From: Oscillospiraceae bacterium
GTDB lineage: Bacteria; Bacillota; Clostridia; Oscillospirales; Ruminococcaceae
Assembly: GCA_017472965.1 (NCBI GenBank)
Contig: JAFUNR010000007.1
Span: 1 to 64,000, forward strand
DNA length: 64,000 nucleotides
Direction: 5' to 3'
A program made the translations under genes and the position numbers. Positions 22,059 through 54,261 of the stretch are shown here, piece after piece. The stretch's first letter is position 1; each line of letters begins with the position of its first letter. The notes beneath the pieces are model-generated. The model was not told where the DNA came from. It did not search any database and saw nothing but the letters and a program-made list of their open reading frames with translations.

Positions 22059-22060
22059 GA

Positions 22061-33266: not shown

Positions 33267-33269
33267 TCC

Positions 33270-34657: not shown

Positions 34658-34703
34658 TCCCTTTTTGCCCTGTGCTGCGGGTATTTTTTCGGTTATTTTC
34701 CGG

Positions 34704-35057: not shown

Positions 35058-35071
35058 AGAGCTCCTCCTGT

Positions 35072-36394: not shown

Positions 36395-36414
36395 GCTTTC
36401 GCCTCCCTTTCTTT

Positions 36415-37112: not shown

Positions 37113-37144
37113 CGGGATTTTGCCGAAAAACATCGCACACCTAT

Positions 37145-37173
37145 TTACCAAACACCTTTTCCGGTGTTATAAT
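37145..37173 (+). promoter_or_regulatory. Promoter of the six-gene operon
   Basis: TTACCA (37145-37150) and TATAAT (37168-37173) are 17 bp apart. It is divergent from the boxed promoter of the toxin unit; the two -10 elements are about 90 bp apart. Confidence 0.75.
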
Positions 37174-37223
37174 TTTCTAAAAAGGTCGGAGTTCTTTTGA
37201 TTTTGTCGGACAGGAGGACACAC

Positions 37224-40200
37224 ATGGCAGCTCTGTTTGATAAGCTTTCCCTGCGGCGGGATATCCTGATCTATCTGGATGATTTCCTTACCGCCGACGA
37301 CAGCAACCGGCGCATCCGCCGCAGCCATCTGGCAAGCGCCTGCCGTGCAGCGGGAATCGACTGCGATGCGCTTTTGCAGGATCCCGCCGGTGCGCTTGCC
37401 GGCATTCCCGATAAAGCACAGCTGCTGCGCAGCATTCTGCCCGCACGCTTTTACGATTTGTACCGTGCTGCCGGCGGAGCGGCGGATCATATGAAGCGGC
37501 TGACGGCACGGCTTGCGCCGGAATACGCCGCCGACCCCACCCGCGTGGCCATTCTGAAAAAAGCGCTTACCGGCCTTGGAGAGAAAAACAGTACCCTTCC
37601 CACCCATACCGTCATCGCCTGGGCCAAAGCAAGGCTGAGCGCCGAAGAAAAAAAGGCGTTCGCGGCGGCTGACGGAGCTGCCCGCCTGCGGCTGCTGGCA
37701 GATAAACTGGATGACAGCATCTTTGCGCTGCTGGATGCCCCCGGCGGCATGGATGTGATGGACACGCTGCGGATCCTGGCAAAGAGAGTGGTCACCGACT
37801 GTGAAAACGGTCTTTTTGCCGATGACACCTTCGCCTGCGTGGATACCTCCTGTCTGGATGGGCTGCTTATCCGCTGCACCGCGCCGCAGCAGCTGCTGCG
37901 CAGCATCCCCCTCATCGAAAAGCTGCTGTGGATCGCCGCCGCACTGCAAAACGGCACACGGACAGCCGCAGCGCTCCGTGCCGTCCTTGATCCCGACGCG
38001 CTCGCCGCGCTGAAAACAGATCTTGCCGCCGCATTGCTGCAGGTGAGCGCCAACGGCCGCCCCGGTGCGCAGAACAGTCTGCTGCCCCGCTTTGAAAAGC
38101 TGCTGGCACTTACGGATGCGGCTGCTTTCCTGTGCGGCATGGCGCAGCACCTGCACGCCGAGCGCAAAGCCCTTGTACTGACCAACCGCGCCTTTCTGCA
38201 GACGGATACCGGCTGTCTGGATGCGCTGCTGCCGAAGGATGCCGCCGCGCTGGCCGCGCTGCTGCCGGCGGCGGAAAAATGCGCCCTTCTTCACGCCGCG
38301 CTGCAAAACGGGCAGCTGCCCGACGGTGCCGCACCGGATGCGGATGCCTTTTTCGCCATGGAGAACGCCTTTATCGAGGTATTCAAAACGGTGCCGAAGG
38401 ATGGACGGCTGGGCATCTGCCGTCCGCTGTATCTGCAGTATCAGGATGCCCTTGCCGCCCCCGGCGCAGAAAATTATTCCGCGCCCGATGCACTGGGCTG
38501 TATGCTGGAGCTGCTTTTGGAGGGTCAGGAGCAGGGTATTCTGGGCAGGGATGCCCTTGCCGGTATCGACATCCGTTTTCTGCTGCCGCTTTTTGAGCGC
38601 TGTGTTTTCAACGGCGATGTGAGCGCCGGCAATCCCGCGGTGGATCTGCTGCTGTCCGGACTCAGCTTTCCGGATAAGCTGAAGCTGCTGCAGCCCCACC
38701 TGACGGCGGAAAACATCCAAAGGATGAACGAGAGCCTGAACAGGGATTTTGTTGCGCGGCTGAAGGAGGCCTGCGCCGATGCGCTGGCGGTATGCGCTCC
38801 GCAGTACAGAGCTGCACTGGAGGAGTGTCTGCATCCGGAGGGCCGCCGCACGCTGCCTGCAGCCGGCGAAACGCTTTGTATTCTGACGGAGTTTTTCCTC
38901 TCAGAGCAGGTGTATCCGCTCATCCGGGAACACGCCTTTGCCGGCCGTCATTTTCAAAAGCTGAATGCCGCCGTTTTTCTGTGCGTGCCATGCAGGGAGC
39001 TTTTTGATCTGATCCCTGTTGCCGACCGGCTGGCGGCGCTGTGCCGGACCGTTTTCTGCCGCAGACCGCTGGAAAGCGAGCTCTGCGCACTGGTGGATGA
39101 GGAGGCGTGCATCCTTGTGCAGAATTCCCTTGCCCGCTGGATGCAGAGCCTGCCCACCCGCAAAACGGTGGTGAAGGAAAGCGTTTTCGCGCTTTACAAG
39201 ACCAATCTGCGGGATGCCCGCAAAAGCGCCGAGGGGCTGCGGCTGCTGGCCTTTGCCGATGAGCTTGCCGCCGGCGTGTTCCGCCCCAACGGCATCACAA
39301 AAACCTATCTGTATTACTATGCCTTTCTGTTCGGTCTGAGCTTTTCCCGGGAAGGGATATCCGTCAGTGGGGAATACGATCTGGAAAAGCAGCTGTTCCA
39401 CGGCTACTACGCGGAAAACACCCTTCAGACCATTCTGCGGGAGCAGGCCCTTGCGCCGCAGACCGCAAAGCGGCTTTCCACCGCGTTTGAGGATGCAAAC
39501 AAGGTGCTGAGCCGGGGCATCAACTATAAAAACTTTGCCGAAATGTGCTATTTATACTGCCTTGTCAATCCGCCGGCGGCGGGGGCAACGGCAGGCGAGG
39601 CTCTGGATGCGGCAGAAAACATGATCGAAAGCTGCTGCGATCTCGCCGCCTCCAGCAAAAAGCTTACACCGCGCACCACGCCCACCGATCACACCCGCAC
39701 CAGTACCTACCGGGACAAGGTATCCGCCTTTTTGAGCCGCACCCCGTGGGAAGCGAAAAAATATCTGGTGGAAAGCTATGTAATCCGTCAGGACCGGCGC
39801 GGCGCAGGCATTCTGGCAGCCGGAGACACCAATACCGCCTTTGAGCTTTGCGCCAATATGCGGGATATCACAAAAAAAGAGCGGCAGCTGATGGCCGCCG
39901 CCGCAGAGCTTATGGAACGGCTTTTGCTGCAGGAGCACAACGATGATCCCCTCTATTGCACGCTGGTACAGGCGCTGTGCAGCCGTTTTTCTCCCTCGGA
40001 GGGCTTCCTTGCCGGGTATCTTGAGCGGAATATCGATACGCACCGCATCACCCGAAGCGAATTTCTGATCCTGTGCGCCATGCATTTTCTGTATTCCGAC
40101 GAGGCCGAGATCACCCGGGGCACCACGCTCACCGACATTCTGGATAATTTCTGCTACAGTGCCGAGGAGCTTTTGCTGGAGGCCGGCTACCAGCCGCCGG

Positions 40201-40511
40201 ATACGGACAACCTGTTCGATGCCTGCGTGATGTTCTTTGTGCTGCTTTACACAGCCGCAGAGCTGCCCGCAGAGTACCGCATTCCGCTGCGCTACGATCT
40301 GCGCGGCGGCACAAACCCGCCGCAGAATCCCCAAAGCCGGAATGCCGAAGCCGAAACCGTCATTCTGCCGCCGGTGCGCAGCGGCTTTCGCTTTGCGGGC
40401 TGGCTCGTACAGGATGCGCAGCGGGAGCATACCGCCCCCGCCGGCAGCTTTATAATCCGGCCCTACGATTTTTCTCTTTATACGCTCACTGCGCTCTGGC
40501 AGAAAATTTAA
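37224..40511 (+). CDS. Large unknown protein with C-terminal InlB-like repeat
   Basis: A 1095-aa protein starting at ATG 37224 behind CAGGAGG. I recognise no family for the first 1000 residues, which are almost wholly helical, Leu/Ala-rich and free of membrane segments, like a helical-repeat scaffold. The last 70 residues resemble a Listeria-Bacteroides (InlB B-type) repeat: YDLRGGTNPP, VRSGFRFAGWL, then a closing YTLTALWQKI. That fold is normally found in surface proteins, yet no signal peptide is present. It is first in the six-gene operon and may be its scaffold or sensor. Confidence 0.8.
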   Translation: MAALFDKLSLRRDILIYLDDFLTADDSNRRIRRSHLASACRAAGIDCDALLQDPAGALAGIPDKAQLLRSILPARFYDLYRAAGGAADHMKRLTARLAPEYAADPTRVAILKKALTGLGEKNSTLPTHTVIAWAKARLSAEEKKAFAAADGAARLRLLADKLDDSIFALLDAPGGMDVMDTLRILAKRVVTDCENGLFADDTFACVDTSCLDGLLIRCTAPQQLLRSIPLIEKLLWIAAALQNGTRTAAALRAVLDPDALAALKTDLAAALLQVSANGRPGAQNSLLPRFEKLLALTDAAAFLCGMAQHLHAERKALVLTNRAFLQTDTGCLDALLPKDAAALAALLPAAEKCALLHAALQNGQLPDGAAPDADAFFAMENAFIEVFKTVPKDGRLGICRPLYLQYQDALAAPGAENYSAPDALGCMLELLLEGQEQGILGRDALAGIDIRFLLPLFERCVFNGDVSAGNPAVDLLLSGLSFPDKLKLLQPHLTAENIQRMNESLNRDFVARLKEACADALAVCAPQYRAALEECLHPEGRRTLPAAGETLCILTEFFLSEQVYPLIREHAFAGRHFQKLNAAVFLCVPCRELFDLIPVADRLAALCRTVFCRRPLESELCALVDEEACILVQNSLARWMQSLPTRKTVVKESVFALYKTNLRDARKSAEGLRLLAFADELAAGVFRPNGITKTYLYYYAFLFGLSFSREGISVSGEYDLEKQLFHGYYAENTLQTILREQALAPQTAKRLSTAFEDANKVLSRGINYKNFAEMCYLYCLVNPPAAGATAGEALDAAENMIESCCDLAASSKKLTPRTTPTDHTRTSTYRDKVSAFLSRTPWEAKKYLVESYVIRQDRRGAGILAAGDTNTAFELCANMRDITKKERQLMAAAAELMERLLLQEHNDDPLYCTLVQALCSRFSPSEGFLAGYLERNIDTHRITRSEFLILCAMHFLYSDEAEITRGTTLTDILDNFCYSAEELLLEAGYQPPDTDNLFDACVMFFVLLYTAAELPAEYRIPLRYDLRGGTNPPQNPQSRNAEAETVILPPVRSGFRFAGWLVQDAQREHTAPAGSFIIRPYDFSLYTLTALWQKI

Positions 40512-40610
40512 GCGCTCCCCCCTGTATTTTCGGCAAATACCGGTATTACAGTGAATACCGGAGAGATCCGAAGGATCCTTCAGAAGAAAACAGGGGGATA
40601 CACCGTCAAA

Positions 40611-41294
40611 ATGAGCATACTTTTCCATTCCTTCACCCTTACCGGAGAATGGCACCGGCAGCAGGGCGCAGCCAATCAGGACTGTGTCCGCTGTGTACAC
40701 ACGCCGGAATGCGCCGCCGCGGTGCTGAGCGACGGTGCCAGCGGCTGCCGCATGGGGCGCCGCGCGGCACAGCTGGTATGCGGGGCCGCTGTGCGGCTGG
40801 TGGAGGAACAGAGCAAAAACTTCTTTCATCTGCCCGAAAAAAAGCTGGCATGGCTGCTGGGCGAGCATCTGCTGTATACGCTGGAATGCGCCGCACGCGC
40901 CGACGGCATACCGCTTGACGAATACGGCTGCACCTTCAGCATGGTATATCTGGAGATCATGACCGGCCGCACTGTACTGATCAGTCTGGGCGACAGCGCT
41001 GTCTTTTCTGTGCGGGAAGGCACACTGCACACGGAGCTTGCGCCCCGCCGTGATGCACAGGACCAGCCAGTGCTGGCCTGCGACAGCGGGCTGCACAAAG
41101 CGCTGCACATCCGCACACTGCACACCGGCCCGGGCGCGTGCAGCTATATTCTTGCCACCGACGGTCTGTGGCAGCTGGAGGACCCGAAGATCACGCAGGC
41201 GCTGCGCCGGCAGGATCTGCCCGCGCTGGATGCTCTGCTTATCCGTGCACAGCCGCAGGATGACTGCAGCTATATCGCACTGACACAGACCTGA
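40611..41294 (+). CDS. PP2C-family protein phosphatase
   Basis: A 227-aa PPM/PP2C-like Ser/Thr phosphatase. Metal-binding motifs are visible: AANQDCV, VLSDGASGCRMG, YGCTFSMVYLE, VLISLGDSAVF, ILATDGLW and the C-terminal QDDCSYIAL. The start at 40611 is preferred for the G-rich ribosome site GGGGGA; a GTG 60 bp earlier is possible but lacks one. It lies 19 bp before the protein-kinase gene, the usual pairing in which it reverses the kinase's marks. It may also dephosphorylate other operon products. Confidence 0.9.
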   Translation: MSILFHSFTLTGEWHRQQGAANQDCVRCVHTPECAAAVLSDGASGCRMGRRAAQLVCGAAVRLVEEQSKNFFHLPEKKLAWLLGEHLLYTLECAARADGIPLDEYGCTFSMVYLEIMTGRTVLISLGDSAVFSVREGTLHTELAPRRDAQDQPVLACDSGLHKALHIRTLHTGPGACSYILATDGLWQLEDPKITQALRRQDLPALDALLIRAQPQDDCSYIALTQT

Positions 41295-41313
41295 CTGCAG
41301 AAAGGAGCACACC

Positions 41314-44300
41314 ATGGATACCGTATACCGGGAGCTGCTCGGCGAAAAAAAGAGCATACGGCTTTTCACCCGTCCAAACGGCGGGGGAGAGAGTTTTCTT
41401 TTTGAAATTCTTTCCGTTGCGGGCGAAGGCGGCTCCGTTGTCGCCTATCAGGCGGTGCGCAAGCCCGCCGGCGGAGCTGCATCCGGTCAGGATGGCACCG
41501 CAGTGCTCGGCATTCTGAAGGAATACTATCCCGTGGATGCGGACGGTCTGCTGTATTATTCGCTTCGCCGCAGCGGGGACGGCCAGCTGCTGGCCGATGT
41601 TGGCACCAGCCGCACCTTTGAAGCGGACTGCGAGCGTTATCTGAGCCGCCACCGGATGTTCGATCGCCTGATCGCCGCAGCCGACAGCCACAAGGTGCTG
41701 CGCAATTACATCGAGGCCGCCGATATTTACTACGGCTTTTCCGATGCTCCGGATACCCCTGCCACCGTGTACCTTTTTGCCCGCAGTCTGGAGGGGATTG
41801 GCTTTGATCAGGTGCTTGCCGGTATCCGCCGCGCCCCCGCCGTGCAGCCGGAAAAAAAGCTGCGGCAGATCCTGCAGGTGCTGCTGCGCCTGACCGATGC
41901 CGTCAAGGCCATGCACACCGCAGGGGTGCTGCATCTGGATCTCAAGCCCTCCAATTTTCTTGCGGCGAAGGATTCTGCCGGCGGCATCAACCCCGACCAG
42001 CTTTCGCTTTTCGATCTCAACACCTGCTGCAATGTGCTGGAGGAAGATCCCGCCGCAGGCCGCACCGGCTCGGCGGGCTTTGCCGCGCCGGAGACCCGCG
42101 GCGGCAAAAACAGCTGCCCCGATGACCGCAGCGATCTGTATTCGCTGGGCGGCATCCTTTTCAACAGCATCGTGCTTTGCCCCAAAGAGATCCCCGACGG
42201 CCTTTACCGGGACAGCTTTTACCCCGCACTGACCCGTCTTTTGCAGGAAAGTGCGCTCATCCGTGCAAGCAGCGTCAACGCCGATCCGCTTTTGTGCAGC
42301 ACGCTGGCACGCATTCTGGAAAAAACACTGGCGCCTGCTCCGCGGCAGCGCTACAATTCCACAGCGCAGCTTGCCGACGACCTTGCCTTCTGCATCCGCC
42401 GCATCGATGAGCTGCGGGTGCTGCCCACCGATGAGCTGGGCGCCACCGACCCGCTGACCATTTTTCAAAAGCTGTTGTATCGGTATCCGCTGTATGCAGG
42501 ACTGAACGGCGGTGACAGCATGGATGTGCTGCTGCTGGGTGCGGGCGCCTATGCGCAGGGCTTTCTGGATGCAGTGCTGCAGGCAGGTCAGAACGGCTTT
42601 ACCGTGCGGGTGACTGCCGTATCCGACCAGTGGAAATCCGACCGGGAAGCATATCTGCGCTTTCGTCCGGCACTTACCCGCTTTATTGCCGTGGAGGGCT
42701 ATACCGCACTGGCACAGCCCTACGGCTATGTACGCTTTACCGGCCCGGGTTGCGGTCAGCACAGTCGTTTTGACGCCGATGCACCCGAACACAACACCGC
42801 ACTGCTGCGCCGGCTGGCCGAGGACAACGACGGACGCCCCTTCGGCTACTGCTTTGTCAGTCTGGGTGCAGACCATCTGAACGAATCCGTTGCAAAGCAA
42901 TGCGCGGCGCTTTTCAAAGAACTTTACGGCAAAAGCACCCCGGTTTTCTATTCCTCCGGCAGCCGTACGCAGCGCACCGATGCCGATGCCTGTCCTGTAT
43001 GGATCCGCGAGCCGCTTTCCTCGGCGGCGCGCATCGCACCGGATCTGGAGGATATGGCCTTCAACACCCATCTTGTATGGATGGGCTCCAACTACGACCT
43101 CAATGCAGTGAAAAAGGATTTTCTCGATGAGAAAAACCATTATTATTACGCAAGCTCTCTGGCCTGTGCGCTTTCTGTGCCTTATAAGCTGCACGCGCTG
43201 GGTCTGATCCGGGCAGATGTCCCCTTTGATCCCGCTGCCGCCGCCGCTGCCTTTCAGCACCGCGTACTGGACCGGCGGGATACCGACCCCGAAGCGGCCG
43301 GACAGTTTGCGCTGCTGGTGTGGTATGAGCACCGCCGCTGGCTGCTGGAAAAGCTGTGCATGGGTTGGCAGGAGCCGCTGACCGCAGACGGAAAACCGGA
43401 TTACGAAAGCTGCCTTGCCAAAGGCACCGTCAAGGATGAGGAGGGGAAGCTGCACCCCTGCATGGTACACTCGGATACGGATGCCCCGCTTCTGGCAGCG
43501 CCCTGGCTCGATCACAGCCGCTGGGATTCCGATACCCCCACCGAAGGGCTGGATGATCTGGATGCCATGTCCGTCCGGCTGCACCGCGTTTTTCTGAAAG
43601 AGAAAAAGCGTCTGTTGGCGCAGACCAATCTGCTGCAGTGCGATGCACTGAATGAGCTGCGTGCCTTTGCCGCCCGCAGCCGCCGGGTTTTTCAGGCGTT
43701 TTCGGTGTATGAAGCCGCACTGAAGAGCATTCTTTCCGGCTCGAAAAATGCTTCAAAGCATCTTTCCGATCACGCTGCCGCGCTGGTGCAGGCTGTCCGG
43801 GAGGATCTTTCCGACGAGCAGGCCGGATACATCAAAAAACTGACCAAAGCCGCTGCCGCCGCATTCTTCCCTGTGATCGAAGCAAACCTGTACCGCGATT
43901 ACAAGGCAAACGATCAGGGCATCGTGCTTCATATTCCGTTCATTCTCACCAACCGCCCCGTCAGTGCGCTGGCACTGCCTTTTTCCACCGGCACGAACGC
44001 GCTGCACAATGTGGCGGCCGCCACCGTGCTGAATCCGGCACAGCTGCTCTATCTGTACCGGTTTACGCCGGAATGCAGTGTCGGGCTTCTTTGCCGCAAG
44101 CTGGAGCTGGCTGTACGCTATCTGTGCAAACGCAAAAATCACTGTGCCGTAAAGCCGGTGATCGGCTGCGCCGCCGGGCTGGAAAGCAGCGTGCTGCACA
44201 CCCTTTCGGATGCGTTGGATGCACTTTCACAGAAATACGCCGGCGAGGAAAACAACTGCCGCATCCGCAGACCCATGCTGTTTGAATATACCGGGCCGGA

Positions 44301-45603
44301 GGAATTCGTGCAGCTGGCGGCAGACTTCATGGCCGAAAACGGCGTACAGTTTTACGAGGGTTCCAACCCGATGCCCGGACAGGATGAGCTTTTCACGCAG
44401 GAGGAGCTCTTTGCCTGCCTGCGCAAGGCAGTGCCCGGCATCGGCTGCTTTATCTTTGATGCGGTACGCAAGCAGTTTATTGCCGCACCGCAGGATGCTG
44501 CCTGCGCCGCGCTTGCCTGCCGCAGCGATGATTCCTTCCTGCAGGTGCAGGATGCCCTTCTGCTCAACGACCTTCCCCTGTGCACGGATATTCCGGAATC
44601 CATCAGCGATATCAAGCCGCTGCGCAGGATCCTGTGCGGCAGTTATCTTACCGGAAATGCCGGTACCGGGCCTGCCCTGCGCAGCAAAACAGCCATGCTC
44701 ACACAGCAGACTCTTGCACAGCGGCTCTCCCGGCAGGAAAGCTTTATCACGCTGGCAAGGCTTGCGCCGGTGCCGCAGAGCGGACTTTGCGAAAGGGAAT
44801 GGTATCTTCCCGGCTTCGTTTTCCGGCCGCTGCGCACCCTTTTGCAGCAGCTGACGGAAAAACAGCTTGCCGGCGAGGGTTCCTGTGCCGTCAGCCATTC
44901 CAGCGATACCTGCCGCGTGCATATTCTGAGCAGCAGAGAAAATCTTTTTGCGCTGGATGAGGCCTTCCGGCAGCCGCATATGCTGCTGGATTATTACGCG
45001 CCCTGTCTGCGGCAGCAGACCGCAGAGGGCAGCCCGTATTATCTGCTTTGCAGCCGGCAGCTGCGGGTGGAGGGGCTTTCCCTTGCGGGAGAGCTTTCCT
45101 CCCCGCTGAACGCTCTGCTGCAGGCTCTGGCAGAGGCCGGCTTTGTGCTGCATCCGGAAAAAGACGGACAGACCGGCGCTGTCAGCTTCACCTTCGCCAG
45201 TCCCTTCATCCGGCGGCTGCTGTGCAGTCCGGCTGAACTGCTGCAGTGTCATATCTACTGCGAGACGCTGCGTACCGGCTTTTGGAACGATATCGCCATG
45301 ACGGATGCTGTCGGCGGCGGCCCCGGGCTTATTCTGAGCAAGGGCTTCAGCACGCTGGTTTGCCGCTGCACGGATACCCCCGCCGATGCCGAAGATCTGC
45401 GCGGTTTTCAGCAGGCGGCGGCGCAGCTGGACGGCTGCCGTATCTGCGTGACCGTATGTTTGACGCAGGCTGCAGAAAACCGCCCCGCACAGACTGTCGA
45501 AACAAAGATCTCCGGCACTCCTGTACACCATCTGCTGACCGGCGAAGCCGCAGTGGCCGATATCGGTGCACTTTTGCAGCAGCTGATGGAGCAAAGCTGC
45601 TGA
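41314..45603 (+). CDS. Protein kinase fused to NAD-binding-like and RyR-like domains
   Basis: A 1429-aa fusion. Residues 1-370 are a Hanks-type Ser/Thr kinase: Lys in LGILKEYYP, catalytic loop HLDLKPSNF (about 207), DLN in place of DFG, FAAPE, and DDRSDLYSLGG. Near 403 a dinucleotide-binding-like segment begins (MDVLLLGAGAYAQGF), resembling TrkA-N domains. About 670-770 is RyR-like (WYEHRRWLLEKLCMGW, LHPCMV, LDDLDAMSVR). The last 600 residues are unassigned. No membrane segment is visible. I infer that the ligand-sensing domains control kinase output. Confidence 0.85.
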   Translation: MDTVYRELLGEKKSIRLFTRPNGGGESFLFEILSVAGEGGSVVAYQAVRKPAGGAASGQDGTAVLGILKEYYPVDADGLLYYSLRRSGDGQLLADVGTSRTFEADCERYLSRHRMFDRLIAAADSHKVLRNYIEAADIYYGFSDAPDTPATVYLFARSLEGIGFDQVLAGIRRAPAVQPEKKLRQILQVLLRLTDAVKAMHTAGVLHLDLKPSNFLAAKDSAGGINPDQLSLFDLNTCCNVLEEDPAAGRTGSAGFAAPETRGGKNSCPDDRSDLYSLGGILFNSIVLCPKEIPDGLYRDSFYPALTRLLQESALIRASSVNADPLLCSTLARILEKTLAPAPRQRYNSTAQLADDLAFCIRRIDELRVLPTDELGATDPLTIFQKLLYRYPLYAGLNGGDSMDVLLLGAGAYAQGFLDAVLQAGQNGFTVRVTAVSDQWKSDREAYLRFRPALTRFIAVEGYTALAQPYGYVRFTGPGCGQHSRFDADAPEHNTALLRRLAEDNDGRPFGYCFVSLGADHLNESVAKQCAALFKELYGKSTPVFYSSGSRTQRTDADACPVWIREPLSSAARIAPDLEDMAFNTHLVWMGSNYDLNAVKKDFLDEKNHYYYASSLACALSVPYKLHALGLIRADVPFDPAAAAAAFQHRVLDRRDTDPEAAGQFALLVWYEHRRWLLEKLCMGWQEPLTADGKPDYESCLAKGTVKDEEGKLHPCMVHSDTDAPLLAAPWLDHSRWDSDTPTEGLDDLDAMSVRLHRVFLKEKKRLLAQTNLLQCDALNELRAFAARSRRVFQAFSVYEAALKSILSGSKNASKHLSDHAAALVQAVREDLSDEQAGYIKKLTKAAAAAFFPVIEANLYRDYKANDQGIVLHIPFILTNRPVSALALPFSTGTNALHNVAAATVLNPAQLLYLYRFTPECSVGLLCRKLELAVRYLCKRKNHCAVKPVIGCAAGLESSVLHTLSDALDALSQKYAGEENNCRIRRPMLFEYTGPEEFVQLAADFMAENGVQFYEGSNPMPGQDELFTQEELFACLRKAVPGIGCFIFDAVRKQFIAAPQDAACAALACRSDDSFLQVQDALLLNDLPLCTDIPESISDIKPLRRILCGSYLTGNAGTGPALRSKTAMLTQQTLAQRLSRQESFITLARLAPVPQSGLCEREWYLPGFVFRPLRTLLQQLTEKQLAGEGSCAVSHSSDTCRVHILSSRENLFALDEAFRQPHMLLDYYAPCLRQQTAEGSPYYLLCSRQLRVEGLSLAGELSSPLNALLQALAEAGFVLHPEKDGQTGAVSFTFASPFIRRLLCSPAELLQCHIYCETLRTGFWNDIAMTDAVGGGPGLILSKGFSTLVCRCTDTPADAEDLRGFQQAAAQLDGCRICVTVCLTQAAENRPAQTVETKISGTPVHHLLTGEAAVADIGALLQQLMEQSC

Positions 45604-45640
45604 TCTGCCATTCAACCTGCCGAAAAGGGAGAGGAACTTT

Positions 45641-48385
45641 ATGGATTACACCGATATGCTGGCACTGGCTCAATCGATGGGCTACCGCAAATTCACTCCT
45701 TTGCAGAGCAAAGCTTTTTCCCACCCGGCCGCATACGATCCCGCACAGGATCTGCTTGCAGTGGGGCCCACCTCCTCCGGCAAGACGCTGATCCCGCTGC
45801 TGCTGTTCGCCGCCGCTTACCGCAATGCGCTGCAGCAGGGTCTGCACCGGCCAAAGATGCTTTTCATTGTGCCCTACCGTGCACTGGCGGCCCAGAAATG
45901 TCTGGAGCTGCGCCAGAAGCTGAAGCAGGCGCTGGGTATGGATATGAGCGTCATGCAAAGCACCGGTGAATACCGCCAGTATGACGATGCCATTGTGCAC
46001 GGCGAGCCCGATGTGGCGGTGGTCATCAACGAAAAAGCCTTTCTGTTTGCCCAGAGCGAACGCCGCTTTTTGCAGTATTATGATTTTATCGTGCTGGACG
46101 AGATTGGTCTGCTGGCCGACCAGAACCGCGGCATCCGGCTGGATTTTCTGCTGGCATGGTGCAGCGAGCTGAAGCAGCAGGATGCCGCCCCCCGCCTGAT
46201 CGCGCTGGGTACACCCTTTTACGACTGGAGCACCTACGCGGAGAAATTTCATTTTACCCTGATCGCATCCGAGGGCCGTCCCACCCTGCTGGAATATCCC
46301 ATTTATGTCAGCGGTACATACGATACGCGTCATGTGGATACCGGCAGCTGGCCTGCGGAATGCGGCGGGCCGGAAAATTACGGCATTTACCGGCCGGTGA
46401 AAAGACTGCAGCAGGGGAAACAGTGCACACGCTGCCGTATCTCCGGCGAGCTTTGTCCTGTGAACCATCCCTGCCGCAGCGATGCGCAGCAGGCTTGCCC
46501 CGCCGCCGCCGGCCCCTGTCCGTACCCCATGGTCGTCAAGGAGAAATCCGTACCCTTCCGCTACCAGATCATCGCCGGTCTGTGTCGGTGGCATCTGGAA
46601 AAGCACCACCAGATCCTCATTTTCTGGAACAACCGCGAGGAGGTCCGCCAGCTTGCCGCATACCTTTTCCACGCTCTTTCGGATCTGCTGCCCACCGCGC
46701 CGCCGCTGGAGGAATGCAAACGCCGGGTGCTGGCTGCCTGTACCGCTATCGCCAACAGCGATTCGGATTTCCACCGTGCCGAAAACATCTCCGAGGATGA
46801 ATTTTTCGGCATTCTGGACGACGATCATTACCGCGCCCTGTGCAGCGGCGTGGGTTTTCATTCCAGCGCCGTTCCGCTGGAGGTGCGCAGCTATGTGGAA
46901 CAGCAATTTCTCGACAACGGCCGTCTGCGCATCGTGTGCTGCACCGAAACGCTTGCCTACGGCATCAACAGCGCCACCGATGCGGTGATCGTGGCGGATA
47001 TGACAAAAAATACCGCAGATTCCACCATCAAATATCTGGAAGCCAACGAATACCAGAATTACATCGGCCGCTGCGGACGGCTGCGCACCGACCGGGATAC
47101 CGATAAAATCGTGGGCTACGTGCATCCCATCCTCAGCTGCTTCGGTCCATCTTCGCCGGATTTTGATCCCAACCTTCCCGCGTACCGCAGCTGGATGCAG
47201 CTGAAGGAGCAAAGCAAGGTTCCGCTGCCCATCCACAGCTGCATCTTTGAAAAGGGCAACGACTTCATTCCGTTCTTTCTGCTGTGCCTGATCCCGGACG
47301 AGACCGAGCGCCCCCGCTCGGCGGCCGAGCTGCGCAGCTGGCTCGACCGGCTGCCCAAACCGGAGAACCGGGAGATATACGATCTGCAGCAGGCGCTGGA
47401 TTATCTGCTTGCCCGCGATCTGATCACAGATGTGCGCGATGATCCCTTTACCTTTCTGCTGCCGTTCCAGATGGATCAGCCACAGTACCGGGTGGTATAC
47501 GATAAAAAGAATCTGCGCGGTTTCACGCCGGGCGCGCATGATTACGATATCATCCTGCGGGCGCTGAAAAGCTCTTTTCTGCCGGATGGCAGCCTGTGCC
47601 ACGCACAGCTGATCTATCAGCTGCTGGAAACGGATTATCTGAAGAACGATCTTGCCAACTTCAACCTGAATCAATTCTACGATCACCCGGGCGAGTCGCT
47701 GGTACGGCCGACGGAAAACATACTGCAAAAAAGAGTGCTGCGTTTTCTTTCCAAACTGCCGGTTTACGATGCAATGGCCCCGCTGCTTGCACAGAACGGT
47801 CTGAGCCCCAAACGCAGCCTTGTTACCGCCATCGTGCTTTGCTGGGCGGAAAGCGCCAATCCCAGACAGCTGCACCAGTGGTTCGGCGTGGCGTATCCCC
47901 TGATCCAGGTACTGACGCGGGATCTGGAATATCTTTTGCAGATCGCCGCGGTGTGCACCTTTGCCATCCCTGTACGCGAGGGCGAATCGGACGAGGAATA
48001 CATTGCCCGTCAGGCGGCACTTCCCGCACAGCTGGGTACGCTGGAGCGTTCGGTAGCGCTGGGGTTGCAGCCCGACCTATACGGCAAAATGCTGGATTTC
48101 TTCCGCAGAGAATCCCAGACAAGCGAGGCTGCCGCCAGCATTTACAATATGCTCATCCGTCCTCAGCCGGGCACGGCACGCCAGCTGCGGCGTATCTTCA
48201 GCAGCTACGCCGTGCTCATCGATGCGATGAAAAACCAGAAGCACGGCCGCGGCGCGGATAACTACCCGCTGCTGCGCAGTGCCCTGCGGGAGCTTCGCAG
48301 TCTGGAAAAACGCAAAAACGAACAGTCTCTCTGGCCCAGATTTGCCGGCGAACTGAGAAACGAGGTACTCAACCATGATCAATAA
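45641..48385 (+). CDS. Ski2-like superfamily 2 helicase (DEIG box)
   Basis: A 914-aa helicase. Motifs in order: I AVGPTSSGKT (about 45), Ia FIVPYRALAAQK, II VLDEIGLL (DEIG rather than DExH), III ALGTPF, V CCTETLAYGINSATDAVI, and VI QNYIGRCGRLR. A Cys-rich insertion between the lobes (CTRCRISGELCPVNHPC with CPAAAGPC) could bind zinc or an iron-sulfur cluster. The C-terminal third is helical. Substrate polarity and RNA or DNA preference cannot be read. Its end overlaps the next helicase gene by 11 bp. Confidence 0.9.
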   Translation: MDYTDMLALAQSMGYRKFTPLQSKAFSHPAAYDPAQDLLAVGPTSSGKTLIPLLLFAAAYRNALQQGLHRPKMLFIVPYRALAAQKCLELRQKLKQALGMDMSVMQSTGEYRQYDDAIVHGEPDVAVVINEKAFLFAQSERRFLQYYDFIVLDEIGLLADQNRGIRLDFLLAWCSELKQQDAAPRLIALGTPFYDWSTYAEKFHFTLIASEGRPTLLEYPIYVSGTYDTRHVDTGSWPAECGGPENYGIYRPVKRLQQGKQCTRCRISGELCPVNHPCRSDAQQACPAAAGPCPYPMVVKEKSVPFRYQIIAGLCRWHLEKHHQILIFWNNREEVRQLAAYLFHALSDLLPTAPPLEECKRRVLAACTAIANSDSDFHRAENISEDEFFGILDDDHYRALCSGVGFHSSAVPLEVRSYVEQQFLDNGRLRIVCCTETLAYGINSATDAVIVADMTKNTADSTIKYLEANEYQNYIGRCGRLRTDRDTDKIVGYVHPILSCFGPSSPDFDPNLPAYRSWMQLKEQSKVPLPIHSCIFEKGNDFIPFFLLCLIPDETERPRSAAELRSWLDRLPKPENREIYDLQQALDYLLARDLITDVRDDPFTFLLPFQMDQPQYRVVYDKKNLRGFTPGAHDYDIILRALKSSFLPDGSLCHAQLIYQLLETDYLKNDLANFNLNQFYDHPGESLVRPTENILQKRVLRFLSKLPVYDAMAPLLAQNGLSPKRSLVTAIVLCWAESANPRQLHQWFGVAYPLIQVLTRDLEYLLQIAAVCTFAIPVREGESDEEYIARQAALPAQLGTLERSVALGLQPDLYGKMLDFFRRESQTSEAAASIYNMLIRPQPGTARQLRRIFSSYAVLIDAMKNQKHGRGADNYPLLRSALRELRSLEKRKNEQSLWPRFAGELRNEVLNHDQ

Positions 48386-51300
48386 TCTGCAGGATATTGT
48401 CCGCGAACGCCGATGGGACGGTGAATTCACCGACATAGCCGCAGCCATTGAAAAGCGTCTGTGCCGCCAGATGGAGCTTGCCTCAAACGGCGCTTCGGCA
48501 AAGGGTATCCGCTTTACCCGGCTGCAGCATACCGCTTTCAACCATCCGGATTTCTTCCGCAGCGAGGAAAGCGGACGCTTCCTTGGCAAAAATCTCATTG
48601 TTCAGGGTGCCACCTCTGCCGGCAAGACCCTCGTTTCCGAGATCGCCGTCCTGGACGCCCTGTGGCACAAAAAGAAGGTACTGATCCTTGTGCCGCTGAA
48701 ATCTATGGTGCGGGAGCGCTTTACCCGCTTCCGCGATGATTTCAGCGCCGTTTCCGATTTCCGGGTATATGCCAGCTCCAGCGATTATCTGGATTACGAT
48801 GAAGATCTGCTGTACGGCAAATTCGATGTGGCGGTCATGGTGTATGAAAAGCTCTTTGCCATGCTGTGCCAGCCCAACTGCAAAATTCTGGATGACTGCG
48901 GCCTGATCGTGGTGGATGAGCTCTCCATGCTGGAGGTGGAGGCCCGCGGCCCCAAGCTGGAGATCGCGCTGGAAAAGGCCAAATCTGCGGCAAATCCTGC
49001 GCGGATCCTCTGCCTTGCCACCACCGACTGCGATCCCCGCTATATCGGAAAATGGCTTTCCGTTTCCGTACCGGATGAAAACGGTGACCTTGAAAAAATC
49101 AATGCACAGGTCATCTGCGAGACCAGCCGCCCCGTGGGTTTGAATGAATATGTGGTGAAAAAGGACGGCAGCTACCGGATGCGCACCGTGCCCGGCGAAA
49201 ACGAGACCCTGTCCCCGCAGGAAACGGTGCAGGGAAAATTTCCCGTTGCCGCCGCCCAGCGTGACGAAGAACAGCGGCGCAATATGCTTACGGCAGTGCT
49301 CAATCACCTGTACGCTGCACCCTCGCCTGTCAAGCCCAAAACGCTGGTGTTTGTTCCCAGCCAGAACGGTGTGCGCCGCATTGCCGAATTCATCGCCGGC
49401 AAGCTGAATCTGCCGCTGGAGGATGAGCTGCCCCGCGATGCCGCCGCACGCGCCGCCGAGATCGCCCGCCGCAAGGCCATCCACAGCAGTTTTCAGGAGA
49501 GACTGCAGTTCTGCGATACCGATGACGATCTGAATCTTTTGCAGGATTCGCTTTTGAAGCAGGGCGTGGCTTTTCATCACGGTTCCATGAGCACCAACCT
49601 GCGCGAACTTCTGGAAGAACAGTTCGCACAGGATCCTTCCCTGAAGATCATTGTCGCCACCGAAACCCTGACCATCGGCGTCAACCTGCCCATCGATGCG
49701 GTGATCCTGTACGATACCCATGTGCCGGACGGCAGCGGCCGGGACAGCCGCCGCAGCCTGACCATGCAGCAATACCGCAACTACATCGGCCGTGCGGGCC
49801 GACTTGGTCTGGCACAGCGCCGGGGCGAAAGCTATCTGCTGGCGCTGGATCCCCGCGATGCCGCCTACTGGGAGGATCACGATGCGCGGCTTGAGCCCAT
49901 CACCTCGGCGCTGGTCAATCTGCCGGAGGACAAGCTGGCGCCCTACTATCTCAACCTGCTGCTGCGGGGAAAGAACAGTGTTTTCACCGCTTCCGATATC
50001 AAAAACATTCATGAATCCAGCCTTTCCCGCATCTGCGGCTCGAAAAAAATCGACCAGAACCGGATGATCAGCCTGATGGAGCAAATCGAACTGGTGCGTT
50101 CCTCCGACAGCGGAGATGACGCAGCCGGCAATTTTGCCGCGCCCATTTTCGGCGGCAGCATGCCCGTATTTGACGAGGAACAGTACATCCTGAATCAGTA
50201 CGGCAAAAGCCTTGCACCCTATGCTTTCTCGCTGGGTACCGCCTATGCGCTGATCAACTGCTTTATCCGCGGGCTGCAGCCTTTCAATCCGCGCAGCCAG
50301 CGGCCCTACGGCTTTACCGGCAGCATTCAGGCAAGCGATATCACCGGCGACCGCTACCTGATGGATATCCTGTTCACGATCTGCATGAACTACGAGCTGG
50401 TGCAGTCCAGCCCGCTGAATCTTTCCGAATCCACCGATCCCCAGAGAAATCTGGAGATCCGCAAGCAGCTGCGGCGGGAGCTGCTTCGGCTGGTGGATCC
50501 CCCGGCAGAAGATGCCAAAGAGCCCCGGTATCACTGCGAGCTGTGGCAGGGCTCCTACCTGAAACAGCTTTTCTGCGGCGAGACCGCCACGCCGGATATG
50601 TACAATTACAATCCTCTTTTCCGCGCGCTGCTGATGTTCTACTGGGTCAAGGGACACTCCGCCCGGGAGATCCGCCGCATCACCGGCATCGACTGCGGCA
50701 AATACTCCAACGGCGATCTGGAACGCTGCGCCGATGCCATCAGCTTCCAGCTGGATGCCGCCTACCAGCTGGTTTCCTTCCATAAAAAACTGAACAACAG
50801 CATCGGGGAAAACGATGCCGCTGATTCGCTGATCAACGCCGTGCTCAACCTGAGCAAACGGGTCAAATACGGTGTGCCCAGCGAACTGATCATCTTTGCC
50901 AACCGTCATGTGCACGGTCTGGATCGCAGCCGCATCATCGCCTTTGGCAAAGCGGCGGAAAAAGCCGGCAAAAAGCCTCTGGACTATCTGCGCAGCTCCA
51001 CCGATGACGAACTGCGGGATTTCTTCACGCCGCAGCAGCGCAGCATTCTGCTGCAGCGCCTGCGCAGCCGTTTCTCCGGCGATTTCGAGCTGCTGACCAA
51101 AAAGCTGGATGAACTGGCCGTGCTGCAAAGCTGGAAAACCGATCTGAACCGGCTGCACGGCTTCAACGAGGATGCGGACGGTTTCTTCCGGCTGCTGGGA
51201 AGCCTGCTTTCCAAAAATGTGCTGGAGGGGAAAGGGATATTCCGTTCCTGCCGCGATCTGGAGCCGGTGGAGGATGCCCGCGGCTTCGACTGTGCCGACA

Positions 51301-52586
51301 GCCGCCGCTGGGTATTTGACAGCCGGGACGGCAGCAGCCGCTGCATCTATCTGACCTACTGCCGGCTGCCGGAGAAGGATGACCGCAGCAGTACACCCAT
51401 TGAGCTCACACTGCCCGGGGATGTGAACGACGGAACCCTGAATCTGGTATTGCTCAACGGCAGCACCGGCTGGAGCTCTGCCGATGCAGAGAATGTCATC
51501 ATCCACGGCTGCGGCAGTCTGTTTTTGAATTGCGACAATCTCGCCGTGCTGCTGGCCTCCTCCATTCTGCTGGGCAACGAAGAGGATTCTCCCACAAAAA
51601 GCTGCGTGGATCTGCTGTATGAGATCCTCAACGATGCCCGCGGCCATTTCAGCCGACTGGCTTACTCGTGGCTGAACTACGATACCCCCCACGATGTACC
51701 GGATGCCGACTATCAGCTGCTGATGGATCTGGATTCCGATACCCGCGCGGCCGATCTGAAAAAGCTGCTGGAACACAGCAGCCCCGAACTGAAAAATTTC
51801 CGGATTCTGCCCTGGGGCAGCGCGCTGGAAACCGGTGCGCGCACCGATGTTCCCACTGTGGTGCTGCTGAACCGCAATACCATCACCCACCATCACTCGC
51901 TTATGATTTTCCTTAACCGGATGAAACAGGATAATCTGTTCCGCAACTGTCTTGTGCTGGTGAAAAATGATGCCGATGTGGACAACTGGACCGCTTCTGA
52001 CTGCAGCACGGACGGCATGCCGTGGATCGATGCCGACGGTCAGTGCACCGTGCGCTGGACAGGCTCTGCGGAAAGCTGCCGCGATGAGATCCGTCTGTTC
52101 CTTGAGCAGCGCAGAAATGCGGATTATCTCATCGGTCTTTCCTATCCGCACTATGACGAGATGGGCAATGTTCTGCCCATCACCGATGCGGCCTTTGCCA
52201 GCCAGAACACCGCCTTCTGCAGTCTGGCCACCCAGCTGAACCGTCTTTTCGGCGAGGATCTGATCCTGTGGGATCAGAATGCCCGTGCTTCCGGTCTTTT
52301 TCACGGTGAGCAGAGCACCTCGCTTGAAAAATATGCAAAATGTAAACTTGGCGTCATTCTTTACAATCAGTTGAGTCAGGACAATCACTGGTGCAAAAAT
52401 GAGCGCCGTGTGATGAGGGAAAACGGTATTCCGCTTGTCTGTGTCGGCTCGCGCTACCTGAATCAGCAGGATGCCGACAGCTTTACGCTGGACAGACTGC
52501 CAACCAGTCAGGAGGAATGCCGTGTACTTGCAGAGCGTATCCGCAGCAGACTGATGGACATTCTTTCGCAGAATGAAGAAAAGTGA
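48375..52586 (+). CDS. Superfamily 2 helicase fused to a C-terminal TIR domain
   Basis: A 1403-aa fusion. The helicase part has motif I QGATSAGKTLVSE (about 78), Ia LVPLKSMVRERF, II IVVDELSML, III LATTD, IV TLVFVPSQNGVRR, V VATETLTIGVNLP and VI YRNYIGRAGRLG, as in Ski2/Hel308-like enzymes. The last 155 residues look like a TIR domain: ADYLIGLSYPHYDE, LATQLNRLFGEDLILWDQN, KCKLGVILYNQ and HWCKNERRVM, where Glu (about 1343) occupies the NADase catalytic position. A sensor-effector design, nucleic acid in and NAD loss out, is inferred. Confidence 0.85.
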   Translation: MINNLQDIVRERRWDGEFTDIAAAIEKRLCRQMELASNGASAKGIRFTRLQHTAFNHPDFFRSEESGRFLGKNLIVQGATSAGKTLVSEIAVLDALWHKKKVLILVPLKSMVRERFTRFRDDFSAVSDFRVYASSSDYLDYDEDLLYGKFDVAVMVYEKLFAMLCQPNCKILDDCGLIVVDELSMLEVEARGPKLEIALEKAKSAANPARILCLATTDCDPRYIGKWLSVSVPDENGDLEKINAQVICETSRPVGLNEYVVKKDGSYRMRTVPGENETLSPQETVQGKFPVAAAQRDEEQRRNMLTAVLNHLYAAPSPVKPKTLVFVPSQNGVRRIAEFIAGKLNLPLEDELPRDAAARAAEIARRKAIHSSFQERLQFCDTDDDLNLLQDSLLKQGVAFHHGSMSTNLRELLEEQFAQDPSLKIIVATETLTIGVNLPIDAVILYDTHVPDGSGRDSRRSLTMQQYRNYIGRAGRLGLAQRRGESYLLALDPRDAAYWEDHDARLEPITSALVNLPEDKLAPYYLNLLLRGKNSVFTASDIKNIHESSLSRICGSKKIDQNRMISLMEQIELVRSSDSGDDAAGNFAAPIFGGSMPVFDEEQYILNQYGKSLAPYAFSLGTAYALINCFIRGLQPFNPRSQRPYGFTGSIQASDITGDRYLMDILFTICMNYELVQSSPLNLSESTDPQRNLEIRKQLRRELLRLVDPPAEDAKEPRYHCELWQGSYLKQLFCGETATPDMYNYNPLFRALLMFYWVKGHSAREIRRITGIDCGKYSNGDLERCADAISFQLDAAYQLVSFHKKLNNSIGENDAADSLINAVLNLSKRVKYGVPSELIIFANRHVHGLDRSRIIAFGKAAEKAGKKPLDYLRSSTDDELRDFFTPQQRSILLQRLRSRFSGDFELLTKKLDELAVLQSWKTDLNRLHGFNEDADGFFRLLGSLLSKNVLEGKGIFRSCRDLEPVEDARGFDCADSRRWVFDSRDGSSRCIYLTYCRLPEKDDRSSTPIELTLPGDVNDGTLNLVLLNGSTGWSSADAENVIIHGCGSLFLNCDNLAVLLASSILLGNEEDSPTKSCVDLLYEILNDARGHFSRLAYSWLNYDTPHDVPDADYQLLMDLDSDTRAADLKKLLEHSSPELKNFRILPWGSALETGARTDVPTVVLLNRNTITHHHSLMIFLNRMKQDNLFRNCLVLVKNDADVDNWTASDCSTDGMPWIDADGQCTVRWTGSAESCRDEIRLFLEQRRNADYLIGLSYPHYDEMGNVLPITDAAFASQNTAFCSLATQLNRLFGEDLILWDQNARASGLFHGEQSTSLEKYAKCKLGVILYNQLSQDNHWCKNERRVMRENGIPLVCVGSRYLNQQDADSFTLDRLPTSQEECRVLAERIRSRLMDILSQNEEK

Positions 52587-52597
52587 GGTGACCTCCT

Positions 52598-54112
52598 GTG
52601 GCAAAAAAAGAAAAACTGAAAAGCTTCGGTCAGCTGGATCTTTCGGATTTTGCAGCTATCCCCGAACAGGATAAGGAGAAAGCCGCACCGGCAGCTGCTG
52701 CTTCTGTACCGGAGCCTGCTGCAGAAACCGGCCGCAGTGTGCTGCAGACCTATAAGATGCAGCAGTATGCACCCACCCACAAGCTGTGTTCTTTGATGGG
52801 TTATCTGATCGGCGCACCCGCCGCACAATTTTTCGATGCCGATCACAGCTTTCTGGAAAAAGCGGAATATGACCGTCTGAATAAGCTGCGGGAGCTGCGC
52901 GCCATCCGTGCGCTGTGCCGGCTGCGCTGCCATGTGATGCAGAACTGCACCAGCTTCTTTGCAGCCTTCAGCGATAATACTCGCCTGATCAGTGAGCTGC
53001 TGCCAACGGATCTGCAGAACGAATGCACCCGTTACGGCTACAGCATTTATCCCGCCAAACGGGACGTGTACGAATACCTGATCCAGCTCAACGGCGAAGT
53101 GAACCGTGCACTGGACAGGGGCTACCGCATCTTCTGCAATCAGCTGCCCGAAAATGTGAATCCGAAATATCTGCGCAGCCTGCTGCTTTTCCCCGGCGGC
53201 ACCACGGTAAAAACCGTTTCGGCTATCAGCCTGTTCTTTTCTTCGAACCGCAACCGCTATCCGTGGCGGTGTTATATGAATCTTGGAGAACATCTGCCGG
53301 AATATATGGTGCTTTCGGGCGACGATTACCTGCTGGAAAATGCCTACCGTCTGGCGGGAGACAAGGCGGATATGCTGTGGCATTTCCGCACGCCCTACGA
53401 TCTGCCCGCCGCCAAAGAGCAGCTGCACCGGTTTCTGCGGCCGGAGGGGAATTACAGCTTCCATCTGCTTATTGACGGCATCAGCATGACGGTGGAGCAG
53501 ATCCTTGCCGTTCTGCGGGAAATTCAGCCCCGGGAATACCAGTACATTGAAAAAATCTATCTGTTCTGCTGCAGCGACACCTTCAAAAACTGGAAATTCT
53601 TCTTTGGCGAATATGCAGCAAAGATCCACGCCGTAGAGGTGAGCAGCCCTGTCATCAATGCCGACCGGCTGGAGGATATTGCCGCGAATATGTGTGCGTG
53701 TCTGTTTGGTGCACCCGCCAATATCGCCTATGTGCTTTTTACCAAAAACGCAAAGATCTTTGCAGATGTCAGCGGGGATATCATCTCCTCCCGCCATTCC
53801 ATGTGCCTGATCACCGGCAGGGATGCACCGGACAGTATTCTGGATTTTGTCAGCAGCCAAAAGCGTCCCTATTGCTTTGCCGAGGAATTTGATGTGCAGC
53901 TGCCGGTGGAGCGGCAGAAATATGCGCAGCAGATGGTGCAGAAAAAGTTTCCGCTGGTTCTGCGCGAAAATCTGCGCCGGCTGGTGGAAAATACATTGCT
54001 GGAGATCCCCACCGGTTTTACCGCCGCGGAAAGAGAAGAGCTTTACCGGCAGATCCTGCAAAAGGTACATCTTTCGGTGAAAGAGGACGGCTCGATGCAT
54101 ATCGAGCTGTAA
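52598..54112 (+). CDS. Unknown protein with possible PIN/NYN-like domain
   Basis: A 504-aa protein from GTG 52598, 11 bp after the helicase-TIR gene, with GAGGTGA as ribosome site. The first 50 residues are charged and Ala/Pro-rich. The middle is helical. From about 285, FHLLIDGIS, IEKIYLFCCSD, NADRLEDIAANMCACL and VLFTKNAKIFADVSGD follow the strand-and-Asp order of PIN/NYN ribonucleases, though the match is weak. If real, it would give the operon an RNase effector. It is the last gene before the terminator at 54155. Confidence 0.72.
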   Translation: MAKKEKLKSFGQLDLSDFAAIPEQDKEKAAPAAAASVPEPAAETGRSVLQTYKMQQYAPTHKLCSLMGYLIGAPAAQFFDADHSFLEKAEYDRLNKLRELRAIRALCRLRCHVMQNCTSFFAAFSDNTRLISELLPTDLQNECTRYGYSIYPAKRDVYEYLIQLNGEVNRALDRGYRIFCNQLPENVNPKYLRSLLLFPGGTTVKTVSAISLFFSSNRNRYPWRCYMNLGEHLPEYMVLSGDDYLLENAYRLAGDKADMLWHFRTPYDLPAAKEQLHRFLRPEGNYSFHLLIDGISMTVEQILAVLREIQPREYQYIEKIYLFCCSDTFKNWKFFFGEYAAKIHAVEVSSPVINADRLEDIAANMCACLFGAPANIAYVLFTKNAKIFADVSGDIISSRHSMCLITGRDAPDSILDFVSSQKRPYCFAEEFDVQLPVERQKYAQQMVQKKFPLVLRENLRRLVENTLLEIPTGFTAAEREELYRQILQKVHLSVKEDGSMHIEL

Positions 54113-54154
54113 AAAAAAAGGATACTGCTGCGGACGGTTTGACTGCAGCACAGG

Positions 54155-54183
54155 CGGGCGGCGGACAGCCGCCCGTTTATTTT
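54155..54183 (+). terminator. Terminator of the six-gene operon
   Basis: CGGGCGGC (54155-54162) and GCCGCCCG (54168-54175) pair across GGACA and run into TTTATTTT. Confidence 0.9.
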
Positions 54184-54203
54184 AAAAAAAATTAAATTAT
54201 ATA

Positions 54204-54261
54204 TTGACAAATTCAATAGGAATTAGTATAATACAGATGTAGGTTAGCCATAGCTAACTTA
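54204..54261 (+). promoter_or_regulatory. Near-perfect promoter with palindromic operator
   Basis: TTGACA (54204-54209) and TATAAT (54227-54232) are 17 bp apart, in AT-rich sequence unlike the surroundings. At the predicted start site is a dyad, TAGGTTAGC (54240-54248) and GCTAACTTA (54253-54261), with a 4-bp centre. The half-sites resemble DtxR/IdeR iron boxes (TTAGGTTAG), but the two halves are about 5 bp further apart than in the IdeR consensus, so the regulator is uncertain. A repressor there would block initiation. Confidence 0.85.

Follow-up and report, generated by a model that had tools for sequence, protein, structure and literature searches.

A kinase–RyR–CARF fusion protein in a six-gene operon of an Oscillospiraceae bacterium, probably an immune or stress switch

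Gene content of the operon

Six plus-strand genes, from position 37224 to 54112, make up an operon in the 64,000-nucleotide stretch of DNA analysed here (contig JAFUNR010000007.1 of assembly GCA_017472965.1, from an Oscillospiraceae bacterium; from this point on, the window). The source contig has 70,158 bases and the genome 2.9 Mb, at 85% completeness. Genes 1-3 are a conserved unit, in which gene 3 encodes an intact-looking kinase followed by an RCK-type Rossmann domain, an RyR repeat and a CARF-nuclease fold; the helicase genes farther downstream look like a local add-on. The operon probably acts as a switch in immunity or stress, of a kind for which we found no description. Its features are listed below.

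37144..37173, plus strand: promoter-like site with -35 and -10 elements, a 17-18 nucleotide spacer and a TG
37224..40511, plus strand: gene 1 (P0001, 1095 amino acids), putative scaffold or adaptor, linked to its relatives by phmmer
40551..41294, plus strand: gene 2 (P0002), PP2C phosphatase (Pfam PP2C_2, 3.5e-18)
41314..45603, plus strand: gene 3 (P0003, 1429 amino acids), kinase, RCK/TrkA-N-like Rossmann domain, RyR repeat, CARF and degenerate PD-(D/E)XK
45641..48385, plus strand: gene 4 (P0004), Ski2/Hel308-like helicase (Pfam, PADLOC, NCBIfam)
48375..52586, plus strand: gene 5 (P0005), Ski2/Hel308-like helicase with a long C-terminus without assignment (Pfam, PADLOC, NCBIfam)
52598..54112, plus strand: gene 6 (P0006), NYN/PIN-fold protein with its catalytic acids lost (Pfam matches of relatives, alignment)
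54160..54177, plus strand: terminator-like hairpin

A first-pass annotation, made from the sequence alone, had placed six genes with small gaps or overlaps between one promoter and one terminator. This layout holds: the six open reading frames are co-directional, with intergenic gaps of 39, 19, 37, -11 and 11 nucleotides, and are framed by the promoter-like site and the terminator-like hairpin. Across the region, promoter-like sites are rarer than expected (3, against a shuffle mean of 7.1) and terminator-like sites commoner (42, against 20.8 in shuffles), so it is location, not number, that favours these two signals. The downstream gene at 54341 has its own 12/12 consensus promoter (54204-54232), and the operon therefore probably ends near the hairpin, where it had first been placed.

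Neither gene 1 nor gene 6 has a significant Pfam family. The end of gene 1 (40290-40505) carries a weak Listeria-Bacteroides repeat (Flg_new, E 0.015; TIGR02543, E 0.0088), a repeat usual in surface proteins. Gene 2 is a PP2C phosphatase, as annotated at first, whose metal-binding acids, read off an alignment, are retained.

The fusion protein encoded by gene 3

Gene 3 comprises the following parts.

41491..42408, plus strand: Ser/Thr kinase domain (Pfam, 1.3e-12), with the Lys and the catalytic Asp retained
42517..43032, plus strand: RCK/TrkA-N-like nucleotide-binding Rossmann domain
43087..43641, plus strand: RyR (R12-like) repeat, with the H..W, H and D positions and a profile match
43954..45600, plus strand: Card1/Can2/VC1899-like CARF and nuclease fold with the nuclease motif lost, from fold comparison and alignment

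CARF and RyR domains bind nucleotide signals, RCK domains bind nicotinamide adenine dinucleotide (NAD) or ATP, and PP2C phosphatases reverse the action of Ser/Thr kinases. The first-pass annotation had recognised the kinase and an RyR-like region in gene 3, and both stand; it had overlooked the CARF-nuclease half and its lost active site, as well as a divergent cluster upstream that resembles a type VII secretion system (T7SS). In a second fold comparison, a structure model of the gene 3 protein showed a full CARF-nuclease fold like that of Card1 and gave a match to KtrA. Foldseek with the whole model returned no match at E < 0.001 and chiefly unspecific enzymes, and the viral structure library nothing useful. 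Relatives of the protein are designated here by genome (G) or locus (L). Card1_endonuc is at or over its cut-off in L120, L121, L122 and L124 and slightly under it in G331, and the PADLOC CARF_PDDEXK models match both kinase relatives that were tested, those of L120 and L122. The catalytic PD-(D/E)XK residues are lost in gene 3, L119 and L125 and retained in six of nine members, among them L112 with the first acid changed.

The RyR assignment rests on a profile (A7) of 11 regions, namely that of gene 3 and those of ten relatives, two of the regions being from RCK-RyR proteins without a kinase. When this profile was searched against the PDB, 23 of the 25 matches at E up to 10 were ryanodine receptor domains, which also rank first. 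The best E-value, 2.1e-4, belongs to a chain with two repeats (0.76 and 1.7 for each alone), and the next is 0.011. Within 43087-43641, the protein reads EHRRW, then KLHPC, then LDDLD; the H..W positions are retained in eight of nine family members and the H and D in all nine. Phage RyR proteins, as described in a 2026 preprint (PMC13232231), bind or cleave 2'/3' cyclic ADP-ribose (2'/3'cADPR) via a His, a Trp three positions from it, another His and an Asp, and the H..W spacing in gene 3 is the same as in the phage proteins given there. In L120 and L121, a stand-alone canonical RyR gene lies 3 and 13 nucleotides, respectively, downstream of the kinase gene (E-values of 3e-32 and 1.6e-36). Since these separate genes directly follow the kinase gene, RyR belongs to the system in two of the four complete loci; no stand-alone RyR reading frame follows the kinase gene in L122 or L124.

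Conservation of genes 1-3

Matches to gene 3 at E 0.001 occur in 325 of 394 genomes of the order, and most of the matches listed fall in the kinase domain. Among these listed matches, longer relatives occur in G641 (on two contigs), G586 and G331, and RCK-RyR-only relatives in G235 and G312. An alignment of the Rossmann-RyR part of four proteins, gene 3 included, was used to scan 84,980 species and returned eight loci, of which L123, L125 and L126 are G641, G586 and G331 again. Four of the eight have the whole core, two are cut short and two differ. The order scaffold, PP2C, kinase recurs in L120, L121, L122 and L124. L119 begins within the kinase and is cut off by a contig end shortly behind it, and L123 has the PP2C and part of the kinase. 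In L125 a scaffold and a kinase are present and no PP2C was found, and L126 has a kinase relative with no PP2C found and a 552 amino acid neighbour that P0001 does not match. The gene 1 relatives found by phmmer are genes of 571-599 amino acids in the four complete loci and of 821 amino acids in L125; the C-terminal part of gene 1 is the conserved core protein and its N-terminal part is extra. On plasmids, full-length gene 3 gave 37 records, all partial (covering 14-19% of the query among the rows listed) and mostly in the kinase region. The RCK-RyR stretch of L122 (522 amino acids) has no relative in plasmids or phages, and query A2 none in viral contigs.

The six genes had been proposed as one system. 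We rejected a six-gene unit because only genes 1-3 were found conserved together. Across the nine genomes that have either the core or a kinase related to it, gene 5 gave two partial helicase matches and none at full length, and relatives of gene 6 lie elsewhere. Another candidate, the kinase locus of G061 (L117), was rejected as a core member: its 769 amino acid gene is not P0001-like, its kinase has STAND and Sel1 parts, and its PP2C and kinase are related to those of the core in type only. The coiled-coil and 169 amino acid genes of the window show no real similarity to those of L117.

Four TIR places over cut-off occur within about 13 kb of the gene 3 relative of G331, which fits a link between TIR and RyR at one locus only. 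ClpP-like protease and TraG/VirD4-type ATPase genes (one typed, one by eye) surround the same relative (L113/L114, G331:C12), and a ClpP and a TraG-type ATPase precede the G586 genes. L115 (8514-19998) and L116 (9982-16443) encode proteins that combine RCK and RyR-like parts with apparent membrane stretches. In L115 the neighbour is a large protein with what we take to be a tubulin-like glycine motif, in L116 a gene that by eye is AAA ATPase-like. At L120, a CRISPR-associated CARF-type gene, Cas_APE2256 (2.7e-26; 2994-3791, minus strand), lies about 1.1 kb from the core; we count it in favour of a nucleotide-signal switch.

The helicase genes and the TIR-like region

Genes 4 and 5 were first described as two helicases, and both indeed have Pfam DEAD and Helicase_C. 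Their best NCBIfam models are of the Hel308 type, far under the cut-offs, and the nearest PADLOC models are HamB and PDC-M23B. Gene 5 had further been described as a helicase-TIR fusion, on the strength of one region.

52122..52583, plus strand: TIR-like motif region of gene 5, unconfirmed, motif read by eye

A TIR-like motif (W-C-x-x-E) is readable by eye in these last 150 residues, but no test confirmed a TIR. There is no Pfam match, no TIR_2 match in P0005 at E 1 and no match among PDB sequences; a profile comparison with the four TIRs of G331 gave an hhalign probability of 0.4; and a fold model of the C-terminus, from a single sequence, has a predicted local distance difference test score (pLDDT) of 43.7, too poor to carry meaning. 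The sole TIR_2 match in the source genome sits on another contig than the operon. Any NAD or cADPR step ascribed to gene 5 would thus be inferred.

Full-length relatives of gene 5 were sought widely. Among 297 genomes of the family, 30 match at E 0.001, of which only the own genome matches at full length, the rest covering parts of the helicase region; among 391 genomes of the class at E 1e-8, the own match is joined by one partial match in G926. Since most rows of these scans score no more than the two best candidates of a genome, which may hide C-terminal relatives, the C-terminal 254 amino acids were searched separately in 294 genomes and gave seven weak matches beyond the own one. We take these as chance on the five that were read: L141-L143 are one protein family, presumably a glycosidase, L146 is another protein and L147 has no clear gene (L144 and L145 are unread). 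Gene 5 gave 23 plasmid records, none covering 80%, nothing in phages and, in a search for close relatives, nothing in viral contigs. Gene 4 alone gave 24 plasmid records, none covering 80%, and was otherwise sought only within neighbourhoods.

The NYN-fold protein encoded by gene 6

The PIN-like assignment of gene 6 survives as a fold, reached through its relatives, and fails as an active nuclease. P0006 itself has no PF01936 match, yet it aligns over about 450 residues with two relatives that match NYN (PF01936) at 2.9e-6 and 1.1e-6, over cut-off (both relatives tested). The acidic SDSD motif is absent from gene 6 and retained in 38 of 39 relatives, comprising all 19 aligned neighbourhood members, all 17 from viral contigs (L168-L184) and two of three from core genomes; several of these are near copies, and the count leaves out three weak domain matches and seven unread places. 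As the acids are lost, a binding or sensing role would fit the predicted dead nuclease.

Relatives of gene 6 occur in 27 of 297 family genomes (own included), at 28 places. We read 20 of the 27 places outside the window and aligned 19, L067 being dropped for an interrupted frame. Genes 1, 2, 4 and 5 are absent from all 20 neighbourhoods, and the one match to gene 3 is a weak kinase match in L076 (E 2.4e-4). In three of five typed neighbourhoods the relative lies beside BREX or type I restriction genes (G145 has BREX genes, G140 has HsdR with a DinG-type helicase, and G169 has HsdM), which we count in favour of a defence role; the remaining two have chemotaxis and regulator genes (G193) and glycosidases (G001). 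In the nine core or related-kinase genomes, the family is present at full length in three and as a weak domain match in three, always on non-core contigs of these draft genomes. In L062 (13938-17407), the NYN protein is followed by a DinG-type helicase (PADLOC typeIV_DinG, 1.6e-89) beside a type I restriction gene, and in L061, where BREX genes adjoin, the gene after the NYN gene is an untyped one of 684 amino acids. The NYN gene and the gene after it may form a two-gene defence cassette at these loci.

Comparison with known systems

Kinase-phosphatase pairs, CARF effectors and RyR domains have each been linked to prokaryotic conflict. Gene 3 has the CARF and PD-(D/E)XK fold of Card1/Can2 (DUF1887), although here it sits behind a kinase, an RCK-like domain and RyR, has PP2C and scaffold partners, has lost the motif and lies in a genome without Csm1 over cut-off. 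Genes 4 and 5 resemble HamB of Hachiman (1.9e-23 and 1.2e-26). However, there are two helicases rather than one, the NCBIfam Hel308 models fit better, and HamA has no PADLOC match among the six proteins (best 25 rows for each of P0003-P0005). Only if gene 5 has the unconfirmed TIR would the operon resemble Thoeris, in pairing a signal-making TIR with a partner that reads nucleotides; no SIR2, SLOG or macro domain appears in the Pfam results of the six proteins or in the same best PADLOC rows. Linked kinase and PP2C genes are shared with the GAP1-N2-type kinase-PP2C-vWA conflict systems, which are described with GTPase and vWA genes (PMC7159879), where this operon has RCK, RyR and CARF-nuclease instead. 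The closest RyR comparison is with phage RyDEP, presented in PMC13232231 as a viral evasion protein, and other cADPR binders of PF02026: the H..W, H and D positions are retained in gene 3, and canonical RyR genes stand in two core operons. The RyR of gene 3 differs from RyDEP in being cell-encoded and kinase-fused, with the last two positions spaced differently, and its binding of cADPR is predicted. In the open-access literature we found no description of a kinase-RyR-CARF fusion, which is weak evidence of novelty as subscription papers mostly lay outside the search.

Proposed mechanism and alternatives

Given these parts, we interpret the operon as derived from a nucleotide-signal switch of three genes, whose function would most likely be anti-phage or other nucleic-acid stress defence, a reading to which we give about an even chance. 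RyR (for ADP-ribose-type signals), RCK (for NAD or ATP) and CARF (for cyclic oligonucleotides) would read the nucleotide state of the cell. Signal binding would control the kinase, and kinase and PP2C would set a threshold through gene 1, as scaffold or target. In most relatives the output would be the Card1-type nuclease. In the window, because the nuclease motif is lost, the CARF-nuclease half may instead serve as a sensor or docking domain. The two helicases (the second may have a TIR producing an ADP-ribose signal) and the dead NYN protein would have been appended as new input and output, the helicases replacing the nuclease in one role or the other.

Several observations weigh against this reading. 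Genes 4-6 have no phmmer match beside any other core locus in the stretches seen, and the TIR of gene 5 is unconfirmed. The exchange of a nuclease for helicases rests on one case, since among the three members without the motif L125 has no helicase relative downstream and L119 is cut by a contig end. PF02026 finds no match in the gene 3 protein even at E 10; the second His and the Asp of its RyR are spaced more widely than in RyDEP, and the residue assignment is our own. Csm1 is over cut-off in one of ten genomes, and the source genome has one weak partial match below it (at 85% completeness, with Cmr2 not searched), which leaves that genome with no known type III CRISPR source of cyclic oligoadenylate. 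Finally, the cores of L122 and L124 lie amid genes that by eye look like housekeeping genes, with no visible defence island.

A more ambitious form of the switch, which we hold to be unlikely, is a new class of receptor in bacterial immunity, in which one polypeptide would read both ADP-ribose isomers (RyR) and cyclic oligonucleotides (CARF) and answer with phosphorylation that a dedicated PP2C keeps reversible, most members having a nuclease as output. The operon in the window would then be a rewired member in which the nuclease is only a sensor and the helicase-TIR makes the signal, so that sensor, messenger and receptor would be joined in one operon.

The serious rival comes from the genes directly upstream. 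A T7SS-like cluster lies there in divergent orientation (21075-37011, minus strand), with the following members.

28670-32089 and 26911-28683, minus strand: two FtsK/SpoIIIE-type ATPases
32961-33266, minus strand: WXG100-like protein (E 0.0064, under cut-off)
35072-36394, minus strand: EndoU-domain protein (under cut-off)
Other members, minus strand: TPR protein; membrane protein (four transmembrane stretches by eye); OmpA-domain protein with a lipoprotein-like start (by eye); YbjN protein

Ser/Thr kinase-PP2C pairs regulate other secretion systems. Kinase, phosphatase and scaffold could accordingly regulate this adjoining envelope or secretion apparatus (EssC, the WXG100-like, membrane and EndoU proteins and the OmpA lipoprotein), with the helicases as bystanders; we consider this somewhat improbable. 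Beyond the adjacency itself, FtsK/TraG-type ATPases occur near the genes in the window, in G586 and in G331, and the end of an OmpA-type gene is found upstream of the core in L121. The membrane protein is rare (three of 237 family genomes by its profile, own included), and relatives of it and of the OmpA protein lie near the gene 3 relative of G331 and near the kinase/PP2C pair of G061. That G061 kinase, however, has the different STAND/Sel1 architecture and a 769 amino acid neighbour not detectably P0001-like, and the third genome with the membrane protein, G011, has no kinase on its 8.8 kb contig. The complete cores of L122 and L124 show no match to these genes in the stretches seen, and regulation of secretion gives no role to CARF, nuclease or RyR. 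A module of coiled-coil, membrane and OmpA-type genes was also observed near kinase or STAND/NACHT-like genes in L113, L117 and L151 (the latter type by eye in L151), and in part in L121.

It is also unlikely, and slightly more so, that two independent cassettes share one transcript through defence-island drift: genes 1-3 would be a complete nucleotide-sensing switch, and genes 4-6 two helicases unrelated to it together with the dead NYN protein. The conservation of genes 1-3 alone speaks for this, as does the GC content, which is 0.60-0.62 in genes 1-3 and drops to 0.58 in gene 4, 0.57 in gene 5 and 0.535 in gene 6. GC at third codon positions (GC3), on the other hand, is alike across the genes, gene 6 excepted; the tight spacing and the one terminator-like site at the end suggest co-expression; and the fact that both nuclease sites of the operon are lost points to mutual adjustment.

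The first-pass model, in which sensing falls to the helicases, the threshold to kinase and PP2C, NAD depletion to the TIR and RNA cleavage to the PIN protein, is very improbable: kinase, PP2C, helicases and a readable W-C-x-x-E motif are present, but the cutting of RNA is contradicted by the lost acids of gene 6, the depletion of NAD depends on the unconfirmed TIR and the six genes are not conserved together. What stands of it is a plausible conflict or defence role under kinase-phosphatase control, to which the CARF-nuclease and RyR parts of gene 3 lend further support.

Between the operon region and the gyrase genes, a transposase-type integrase gene (55585-56436) and a small, weakly helix-turn-helix-like gene occupy the minus strand (55585-56735), IS3-like by eye. 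The gyrA region, adjoining gyrB, consists of two minus-strand reading frames within 56886-59465 (56886-58205, with GyrA C-terminal repeats, and 58392-59465, untyped), possibly an assembly fault.

Implications

The operon would belong among the nucleotide-signal conflict systems, as a variant not described before in the literature searched. Two nuclease folds are retained in it with lost active-site motifs, which suggests that they were reused as sensors. The gene 3 family offers, with defined residues, a cell-side candidate for the TIR-made signals that phage RyR domains bind. If the more ambitious receptor reading holds, the RyR domains of cellular bacteria would gain an immune role.

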